From an uncultured bacterium (GTDB lineage: Bacteria; Chloroflexota; Anaerolineae; J036; Brachytrichaceae), in assembly GCA_903873965.1 (NCBI GenBank), contig CAIQQO010000076.1:18270-82269 (forward strand): DNA of 64,000 bases. The letters run 5' to 3'. Position 1 is the first letter of the stretch, and every line of letters begins with the position of its first letter. The translations under genes were made by a program, and so were the position numbers. Below the pieces are notes generated by a model. The model was not told where the DNA came from. It worked only from the letters and a program-made list of their open reading frames with translations, and did not search any database. Below are positions 48,951 through 51,515 of this stretch, piece after piece.

Positions 48951-49019
48951 CAAAAGCACCCATTCTTTTCACGTTGTGTCATCACCATTGGACACGAGGT
49001 GAAAGAATGGGTGCTTTTG
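48951..49019. terminator. Long bidirectional terminator (about 29-bp arms) between convergent genes
   Basis: CAAAAGCACCCATTCTTTTCACGTTGTGTC / GACACGAGGTGAAAGAATGGGTGCTTTTG. Confidence 0.9.
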
Positions 49020-49041: not shown

Positions 49042-49437
49042 CTATTTTGCGCTGGATTTATCATGCTCACGACGATCATCGATGTCATCAGCATAAGTCA
49101 ACGCAGACGGGCCGCGATCGCCTGTGCGAATGCGCACAACATCATCGACCGGGTAGATGAAGATGACGCCATCGCCTTCGGCTCCGGTCTGGGCAGCCTT
49201 GATAATGGCATCGATGGTCTTCTCGACATTGCGCTCGCTCAAGACAATGTTGACTTGAATCTTCGGCAGCATGTCCATGCGATAGGATGACCCGCGCCAC
49301 ACCATATCAATACCACCCTGACGACCATGACCGCGCACCGAAACAACGTTCATACCCACAATCCCAATCGCGCGCAAGGCTTCCTTGACATCGTTCAAGG
49401 CTTCTTCGCGGATGACCGCTTCAATTTTCTTAAACAT
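49042..49437 (-). CDS. P-II family nitrogen regulatory protein
   Basis: MFKKIEAVIREEALNDVKEALRAIGIVGMNVVSVRGHGRQGG...KTIDAIIKAAQTGAEGDGVIFIYPVDDVVRIRTGDRG. Confidence 0.95.
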   Translation of the reverse strand: MFKKIEAVIREEALNDVKEALRAIGIVGMNVVSVRGHGRQGGIDMVWRGSSYRMDMLPKIQVNIVLSERNVEKTIDAIIKAAQTGAEGDGVIFIYPVDDVVRIRTGDRGPSALTYADDIDDRREHDKSSAK

Positions 49438-49522: not shown

Positions 49523-51127
49523 TCAAGCCCCTTTCTTCTTCGAAGAATCCGCCATCTTGGATACGACCGCCATTAACATCGGATGCTGATCCGGCGGGAT
49601 GAGCGCATATTCGGGATAGGCAATGGCGCCGTGCTCATGAATGTCCATGCCGATCAATTCGCCCTCGTGCGAGATGCGCAAGGTCTTGGTCGCCTTCACA
49701 GCCAGCATGAGAACGATAGTCACGATTGCCGTTACACTAACCGTTGCGGCGCTGCCAATCAACTGTGAAATCAACTGTGCTGCACCACCACCGAAGAACA
49801 AACCTGCGATTGGAGCACTGACGTCAGCGCCAAGTGGCGTGGGTAGGAAGTATTTGCCGGCGGCGAATAAGCCGAGCGATAGAGTTCCCCAGATGCCGCA
49901 TACCATGTGCACTGGTACGGCGCCGATGGGGTCATCAATGCGGGCATATTCGAGAACCTCAATGGCTATCACCACGAGCGGGGCAGCTACAATACCAATG
50001 ATGAAGGCGCCCATGGGGTCGACCCAATAGCATGGAGCCGTAATGGCCACGAGACCGCCCAGGAACCCGTTGACCGTGATGCCAAGGTCCCACTTGCCGC
50101 TGCGGAAATAACTGATAAACAACGCAGTCAACCCAGCCGAGCACGCTGCCAACGTCGTGTTAAACGAAACGCGACCGATGCCCTGAACATCCAAACCCGA
50201 CAAGGTGCTGCCGGGATTGAAACCGTACCATCCAAACCACAGGATCAAGCCACCGCACGCGCCGATGATCAGGTCATGCGCAGGCATCGGGCCGCCGCCA
50301 TCGCGCTTGAACTTGCGTCCCAGGCGCGGGCCAAGAATGACAGCGCCGACGAGTGAGACGACGCCACCGATGGTGTGAACAACCGTGGAACCGGCGAAGT
50401 CGCGGAAGGGAACCGCCATAGTTACCAGCCATCCATCGGGACCCCAAGACCAGTGACCGATGATTGGATAGATAAAGCCAGTCACGCCGACGCTATAGAG
50501 CAGGTCGCCGATGAAGCCGGTGCGTCCGACCATCGCGCCGGAGGTAATCGTCGAACAAGTGTCGGCAAACGCGAACTGGAACACCCAGAAGGCCAGCACG
50601 GGAACACCCGTAGTGAGGTAGGTGTCGGGCAGACCCTGCAACGCAAAACCATGCAGGCCTATGAAGGGGGAGCCGTCCATGAACATGAACGCAAAACCCC
50701 ACAGCCAGAAGGTAATGCCGCAGATACAGGTGTCAGCAATGCCCTCAACCAGAATGTTGACCGATTCGCGCGAGCGGGCAAACCCGGCCTCAAGCATCTC
50801 GAAGCCAACTTGCATACAGAACACCAGAAAGGCCGAGATCAGCGTCCACACGGTATTAACCGCGTTCACGGTCGCCGTTGGGTCAGGCGTCGCGCCATCC
50901 GCCAGCGCCTTTGTCGGCAGGAACAAGCTCATTACTGCGAGCAGCGCCGCCAGGCCCATCATCTTGCCGACCATCAACACTGCCACGTTCTTACGGACAA
51001 TAGGGTTCTTCGCGGCGCGGACAAGCCTTTCGCCGAGACTACCCTCCTCTTTTGCGACCAACCAGCCACCTGTCGGTTTGTGCAAACCCGACTTCATAAC
51101 AGACAATAGAACTCTCGAAACGCCCAT
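49523..51127 (-). CDS. amt: Ammonium transporter
   Basis: FCMQVGFEMLEAGFARSRESVNILVEGIADTC, AFADTCSTITSGAMVGRTGF, DFAGSTVVHTIGGVVSLVGAVILGPR. Confidence 0.96.
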   Translation of the reverse strand: MGVSRVLLSVMKSGLHKPTGGWLVAKEEGSLGERLVRAAKNPIVRKNVAVLMVGKMMGLAALLAVMSLFLPTKALADGATPDPTATVNAVNTVWTLISAFLVFCMQVGFEMLEAGFARSRESVNILVEGIADTCICGITFWLWGFAFMFMDGSPFIGLHGFALQGLPDTYLTTGVPVLAFWVFQFAFADTCSTITSGAMVGRTGFIGDLLYSVGVTGFIYPIIGHWSWGPDGWLVTMAVPFRDFAGSTVVHTIGGVVSLVGAVILGPRLGRKFKRDGGGPMPAHDLIIGACGGLILWFGWYGFNPGSTLSGLDVQGIGRVSFNTTLAACSAGLTALFISYFRSGKWDLGITVNGFLGGLVAITAPCYWVDPMGAFIIGIVAAPLVVIAIEVLEYARIDDPIGAVPVHMVCGIWGTLSLGLFAAGKYFLPTPLGADVSAPIAGLFFGGGAAQLISQLIGSAATVSVTAIVTIVLMLAVKATKTLRISHEGELIGMDIHEHGAIAYPEYALIPPDQHPMLMAVVSKMADSSKKKGA

Positions 51128-51191
51128 GATTGCTCTCCTTTATGAATTTGCATGACTCACGTGACCGCATCATGGCGCCTGAAAACGAAAA

Positions 51192-51221
51192 ACCTCCGAA
51201 TGCCATTCAGCACTCGGAGGT
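51192..51221 (-). terminator. Intrinsic terminator within the amt 5' leader
   Basis: Minus strand ACCTCCGAGTGC-TGAATG-GCATTCGGAGGT followed by TTTT: 12-bp stem (one G-U), 6-nt loop. Confidence 0.88.
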
Positions 51222-51242
51222 AACAAGACCTCTGGTTAGAGT

Positions 51243-51281
51243 TTAGAGCGGAAGCAGCAAGGTAAAACGAACATAGTCCAT
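51243..51281 (-). promoter_or_regulatory. Candidate amt leader peptide MDYVRFTLLLPL* (alternative frame 51236-51274: MFVLPCCFRSKL*)
   Basis: Short ORFs between the promoter and the leader terminator; the stop codons fall next to or within the first pairing segment. Confidence 0.45.
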
Positions 51282-51299
51282 TTCACGTCTGCACGGCTG

Positions 51300-51327
51300 A
51301 GTATACGGAAAACTCGAACACTGTCAA
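51300..51327 (-). promoter_or_regulatory. Sigma70-like promoter for the amt leader: TTGACA-N16-TATACT
   Basis: Minus strand TTGACA (51327-51322), TATACT (51305-51300). Confidence 0.8.
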
Positions 51328-51515
51328 GGATTTTTAGAGGGAGTTTCAGAAAATCAAGAAATCGGGTTTGCGCTTTCAATTTGCATTAATCTGAAAGTAA
51401 TCGTAAAATATCAAAACCATACCACGGATCAGTACGAATATTCGGATTACACGGATACGATAAATTAGTGGTCAGAGGTCAGAAGTTAGGCAAGGAGGTG
51501 GCTCGGATTGCAACA

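Follow-up and report, generated by a model that had tools for sequence, protein, structure and literature searches.

A hexaloop attenuator upstream of amt in an uncultured Chloroflexota bacterium: a probable ANTAR-type antitermination switch

We propose that the leader of the ammonium transporter gene amt in an uncultured Chloroflexota bacterium is an ANTAR-type transcription antitermination switch of a nitrogen regulon, the reading that best explains our sequence comparisons and one that we consider probable. The attenuator upstream of amt is real: in the window, the 64,000-nt stretch of DNA that was analysed, the minus strand at 51192-51327 carries a terminator close to the promoter and, upstream of it, a hairpin that competes with it, which bears out the original prediction. 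Its architecture, its recurrence, the conservation of its loop, the occurrence of ANTAR genes and their linkage are all observed. We infer protein binding, antitermination and a direction of the nitrogen response at the amt leader, which would proceed as follows. By default, RNA polymerase would start at about position 51293 and halt at the terminator (51221-51192). Under nitrogen shortage, an ANTAR response regulator in its activated form would bind the C1/G4 hexaloop of the mini-hairpin at 51232-51217 while the terminator is being synthesised and, by holding the 3′ strand of the mini-hairpin, would let the polymerase continue into amt-glnK. The same switch is predicted to operate ahead of the second amt and the glnA of this genome, and ahead of an amino-acid permease gene in two sister species.

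The features of the region are collected in Table 1. The promoter boxes TTGACA (51327-51322) and TATACT (51305-51300) are separated by a 16-nt spacer on the minus strand, and the promoter, ORFs, 1:2, 2:3 and 3:4 pairings and terminator of the original prediction are all present where it had placed them. Its naming of the downstream genes as amt and P-II likewise agrees with their matches to PF00909 and PF00543; glnK is presumably co-transcribed with amt, and a DeoR-type regulator gene is divergent to amt. Promoter-like and terminator-like patterns are no more numerous around the site than in shuffles; the promoter at 51300-51327 and the terminator at 51192-51221 are, however, the region's two best sites, in the correct order and 60 nt upstream of amt. 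The 60 nt that separate terminator and amt show no evident second promoter, so transcription of amt probably passes the terminator. A sigma-54 promoter 3′ of the terminator was considered and rejected, the consensus being absent on inspection by eye. Two inverted repeats lie nearby. One, CTTTCA...TGAAAG at about 51365-51395 in the intergenic region of the DeoR gene and amt, is partly kept in genomes G003 and G002 and is a possible operator for the divergent DeoR-type regulator; the other, the long repeat AAAAGCACCCATTCTTTCAC/GTGAAAAGAATGGGTGCTTTT after glnK (about 48952-49018, minus strand), is probably a bidirectional terminator.

Table 1. Coordinates of features in and around the amt leader (positions in the window)
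Feature	Position	Strand	Remarks
Sigma-70-type promoter TTGACA-N16-TATACT	51300..51327	(-)	11/12 consensus matches; kept in the G003 amt leader as TTGACA...TATACT
5′ leader hairpin (outer stem GCAG...CTGC, inner stem GTGAAATGGAC/GTTCGTTTTAC)	51254..51292	(-)	MFE fold
Proposed leader ORF MDYVRFTLLLPL	51243..51281	(-)	No Shine-Dalgarno-like sequence; start within hairpin; missing in the amt leader of G003 and the permease leader of G002
Proposed 1:2 helix CTCT-AACC-AGAG	51230..51241	(-)	Weak, -1.3 kcal/mol; not retained in G003 or G002 leaders
Antiterminator mini-hairpin (2:3) GAGGU-CUUGUU-ACCUC	51217..51232	(-)	Hexaloop with C1 and G4; 3′ strand common to terminator (ANTAR P2 geometry)
Intrinsic terminator stem-loop, then TTTTTCGTTTT	51192..51221	(-)	13 pairs, -21.9 kcal/mol, z -6.9
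Element H, post-terminator hairpin CGC-CAUGAU-GCG	51166..51177	(-)	Hexaloop C1/G4; family-wide hairpin count
amt, ammonium transporter	49523..51127	(-)	Pfam PF00909, E 6e-111
glnK, P-II protein	49042..49437	(-)	Pfam PF00543, E 2e-28

The 2:3 and 3:4 helices cannot form together, and in the window leader, as in the amt and permease leaders of G003, transcript prefixes that end within the terminator adopt the 2:3 hairpin. The whole folded leader is more stable than its shuffles (z -4.6). The 2:3 hairpin GAGGT-CTTGTT-ACCTC folds with -4.6 kcal/mol (z -2.0); the pattern GAGGTC-N(3-9)-CCTC occurs 27 times in the genome and its reversed control 19 times, so that a hairpin of these 5 bp is not by itself unusual. 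In form it is a P2: a hexaloop hairpin that shares its 3′ strand with the terminator's 5′ strand, with C and not A at loop position 1. Upstream of it, the 5′ leader hairpin encloses the ATG of the proposed leader ORF and has an equivalent in G003, where the outer stem GCAG:CTGC has become ACAG:CTGT. The apical loop of the window's hairpin is something other than a G4 hexaloop, so this hairpin is no canonical ANTAR P1.

Comparison with relatives delimits the conserved part of the leader. The genomes searched belong to a class that we take to be Anaerolineae, or close to it, within the Chloroflexota, and f and g numbers below are the family and genus labels from that search. G003, of the same genus, encodes an Amt 89% identical to that of the window behind a homologous leader, which keeps the promoter, the GAGGTC segment, the terminator and the bases past the T run, and whose mini-hairpin has the loop CCUGUA. 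The element is repeated in G003 just downstream of glnK, before an APC-type amino-acid permease gene, where a bulged C is required for the hexaloop to form. The ortholog of this permease in G002 has the same leader, in which GAGGT-CUCGCA-GCCUC (loop CUCGCA) overlaps the CCTCCGGATA/TATCCGGAGG terminator; the terminator stem is kept in both G003 leaders, and the G002 permease leader keeps it with altered inner pairs. Because the amt and permease leaders of G003 and the permease leader of G002 share them, the promoter, 2:3 hairpin and terminator form the conserved unit ahead of nitrogen-uptake genes. The G003 amt leader, that of the closest ortholog, retains these three parts and has neither helix 1:2 nor the leader ORF.

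Beyond these leaders, a promoter, a 20-100 nt leader and a strong terminator precede many of the family's amt genes. The terminators vary in sequence, but the hairpin sharing their 5′ strand retains a G4 hexaloop, with C or less often A in position 1. The second amt of the window genome has the leader hairpin AGGC-CUGGUU-GCCU; glnA leaders in five species of the window's genus, its own genome included, have CAC-C(U/C)(G/A)GAC-GUG, and those in two other genera have GUCAC-CANGAC-GUGAY. A class-wide search for the pattern GAGG...CCTCCG returned no additional amt leader outside the genus, the two matches inspected lying between convergent genes. A family-wide terminator repeat was also considered and rejected: CCTCCG...CGGAGG terminators elsewhere in this family have neither the GAGGTC segment nor the promoter context, and resemble gene-end terminators.

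Other leaders of nitrogen genes in these genomes are built differently. Ahead of second glutamine synthetase genes (L140, L142, L143), strong terminators lie 60-90 nt 5′ of the in-frame stop that precedes the gene; no hexaloop was found in these three paralogs, though the leader terminators are present, and the terminators are either a different kind of leader or the end of an upstream gene. The amt leaders of genus g7 (L007-L010, L013, L015, L016) contain two attenuator-like elements in tandem, the first with the hexaloop CGUGAA or a similar one and the second with CGCGAA; after them comes a long conserved leader that ends in GACCTACCCYGTCGTCGGTC. In genus g8 (L011, L012, L014) amt follows glnK, and a conserved, structured-looking intergenic block, GACAGYG..CACCGGCGACCACGAGGTRAGCATCTGG..CTGTC, replaces the terminator.

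The canonical ANTAR antiterminator loop has the consensus A1/G4. Scanning for hexaloop hairpins that overlap terminators, blind to loop sequence, we found an M1/G4 loop (A or C at position 1, G at position 4) on 10 of 29 leader terminators, compared with 3 of 121 in the control set (Fisher p 3e-6), with G4 in 10 of the 11 leaders that have a hexaloop at all. On the G002 contigs and the window (925 kb) such a loop accompanies 4 of 74 terminators. Three of these belong to the permease, amt2 and amt1 leaders, all of which have a TTGACA promoter, and the fourth lacks a promoter; two contigs were included here deliberately and the remaining contigs gave the single promoterless match, while the G002 glnA leader was missed on account of its long terminator loop. 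Position 4 is G in all 30 P2 loops collected, and position 1 is C in 26, A in three and G in one; many of these hairpins were first chosen by eye and several stems have one mismatch, so that the blind scans carry the weight. The collected stems also change on both sides at all five pairs, a covariation consistent with the hairpin but no proof of it, nor independent evidence, as the alignment was built from hairpins selected for pairing. M1/G4 loops recur outside the window's family, in f33 (AAUGCC), f35 (CAGGAC, CACGAC), f39 (AAUGAC) and f45 (CGCGAA, CGUGAA, CGAGAA). An upstream P1 hexaloop with the same loop rule was not found in the window leader, nor a canonical dual A1/G4 ANTAR motif in the window. 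P1 is missing from most leaders, several relatives' leaders having no room for it, and is present with the C1/G4 rule in some, as in G005 amt2 (GCAUUC-CACGGU-GAAUGC) and G003 glnA (CAGGAUU-CUUGAC-GAUCCUG).

A candidate regulator for this loop is encoded in the same genome. The window genome has one ANTAR response regulator (PF03861, G000:C175, E 4e-15), with the Rv1626 structure 1s8n as its best PDB match (E 7e-42). In the EutV-RNA crystal structure, G4 is read by stacking of Tyr164 together with Arg142, Lys149 and Glu160, A1 makes no protein contact and one hexaloop is bound per site (PMC8934654). The regulator of the window genome keeps all four of these G4-contacting residues (EutV R142, K149, E160 and Y164) and has Arg at the position of the Met172 plug of EutV. 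This combination of Y164 and R172 marks an ANTAR subfamily, B, which occurs in f1, f35 and f45 and, judged by these residues, also in f21 and f49; the common type A has Phe164 and Met172. An ANTAR-B gene lies directly upstream of a leader-bearing amt in two f45 genera (G128:C782 and G165:C382), and in both genomes that amt has the promoter, the C1/G4 hexaloop and the terminator; in G093 an ANTAR-B gene lies 5 kb from amt. Outside f1, the element was found in 5 of 8 amt leaders from genomes with ANTAR-B, 2 of 28 from genomes with type A only and 0 of 17 from genomes with no detected ANTAR, types being assigned from residues and genomes without residues shown being counted as type A by their lower match scores. 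The association of leader and ANTAR-B (Fisher p 0.001, one G1 loop counted among the rest) is indicative only, since genomes of the same family are not independent. The ANTAR proteins present in f33 and f39 are of the other subfamily, A. No ANTAR gene was found in G008, a 92% complete genome, although it has leaders.

Several other mechanisms could act on the same terminator. Another trans-acting RNA-binding protein, not of the ANTAR type, might read the C1-N-N-G4 hexaloop and antiterminate likewise; it would account for C1 in place of A1, for the single hexaloop of most leaders and for G008, where leaders occur and ANTAR was undetected, but the position of ANTAR-B genes immediately 5′ of such amt genes in two genera, and the association of leader and ANTAR-B across families, speak against it, and we regard it as improbable. 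That a metabolite-binding riboswitch, related for example to glutamine or ammonium, resides in the 5′ hairpin region and controls the terminator is suggested by the structured hairpin that precedes the switch in the window, G003 and G002. This hairpin, however, has no conserved loop sequence and is missing in many leaders, and Rfam returned no riboswitch in the window or relatives, tRNA being the only match above the gathering score in the window and in 20 relative loci; such a riboswitch is very unlikely. The imbalance between the strong terminator and the weak predicted antiterminator (-21.9 vs -4.6 kcal/mol) would suit a terminator that leaks constitutively, or an independent small RNA gene 5′ of amt, with unregulated readthrough. 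Against this stand the 60 nt between terminator and amt, with no evident second promoter, and the same architecture and loop rule ahead of unrelated nitrogen genes, which together make unregulated readthrough very improbable indeed.

Ribosome-mediated attenuation, in which translation of MDYVRFTLLLPL would choose among 1:2, 2:3 and 3:4, was the mechanism first proposed from the geometry; in its favour, the short ORF ends just 5′ of segment 1 and the 2:3 and 3:4 helices exclude each other. The ORF, however, is not conserved, being absent from the G003 amt leader, has no Shine-Dalgarno-like sequence and has its ATG within a hairpin, and it is probably not a gene; an out-of-frame alternative, MFVLPCCFRSKL, starts at 51274 on the minus strand. 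Neither an ATG nor a GTG precedes the 2:3 hairpin in the G003 amt leader or the G002 permease leader, and relatives' short leaders have no space for an ORF: in L025 and L021 as little as ~15-30 nt separate the -10 box from the hairpin, which is too short for a leader peptide. The 1:2 pairing has only -1.3 kcal/mol and no conservation, and leucine-rich codons are ill-suited to an ammonium transporter. Attenuation by a translating ribosome is thus extremely unlikely. The accompanying statement that no such mechanism was known for amt and P-II genes is incorrect, as ANTAR target RNAs have been predicted upstream of both in other bacteria (PMC3369931).

ANTAR-type antitermination accordingly remains our preferred reading, in a form that departs from the strict dual-hexaloop family. 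The window leader would work like an ANTAR target, and is not filed as a member of the A1/G4 dual-hexaloop family because it has no P1, has C at position 1 and has counterparts in G008 with no detected ANTAR. Furthermore, a second hairpin with the C1/G4 loop rule of P2, element H, lies between the terminator and amt; in the amt leaders of the family it is typically GCGC-CNNGAY-GCGC (for example L007, L010, L017, L022 and L024). In 30 family leaders we counted 25 hairpins with a C-N-N-G-(A/C)-Y hexaloop in the sense strand, a few of them P2, terminator or other hairpins, against 3 antisense and 1.8 expected from shuffles, and 21 of the 30 have at least one. A perfect Shine-Dalgarno-like AGGAGGTGAG stands tens of nt before element H in L007-L010, L017, L018 and other amt leaders, with no ORF evident behind it.

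A more specific version, which we put forward tentatively as somewhat less than an even chance, is that Anaerolineae-like Chloroflexota have a reprogrammed ANTAR system, in which the subfamily with Arg for Met172 would read C1-N-N-G4 and antiterminate amt, glnA and permease genes mostly via one hexaloop, with help or tuning from the second, H, which is placed after the terminator and not before it. If true, this would offer a natural test both of the sufficiency of a single hexaloop and of the co-evolution of loop base 1 with residue 172. Antitermination in E. faecalis requires both hexaloop hairpins in vivo. The minimal ANTAR motif has been redefined from structure as a single hexaloop (PMC8934654), and the contrast between two hexaloops in vivo and one as structural minimum would become directly testable in natural single-hexaloop targets that combine a changed loop base with a changed ANTAR subfamily. 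If the ANTAR reading is right, a candidate nitrogen regulon of amt, glnA, glnK and permease genes would be under termination control in a poorly cultured phylum; the literature searched contained no description of ANTAR-type attenuation in Chloroflexota.

Set beside known systems, the leader shares with the ribosome-mediated attenuators of the trp, his and leu operons the alternative 2:3 and 3:4 helices before a terminator, and differs from them in having neither a conserved peptide nor a conserved 1:2 helix. The regulator has the REC plus ANTAR domain layout of Rv1626 (PdtaR)-type response regulators, but where Rv1626 and the type A proteins of the class have Phe at 164 and Met at 172, it has Tyr and Arg. 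The closest likeness is to ANTAR antitermination as known from EutV/eut of Enterococcus faecalis, NasR/nasF and AmiR/amiE (PMC3369931, PMC8934654). Unlike those systems, the leaders here have C at loop position 1 (A in few families), the window and most other leaders have no canonical P1 hexaloop, an extra hexaloop hairpin follows the terminator, and the regulator belongs to a subfamily with Arg at the position of EutV Met172. Common to both are the mini-hairpin with a G4 hexaloop and a 3′ strand that doubles as the terminator's 5′ strand, an encoded regulator that in some relatives sits beside its target, and targets that are nitrogen genes, amt and P-II among them.
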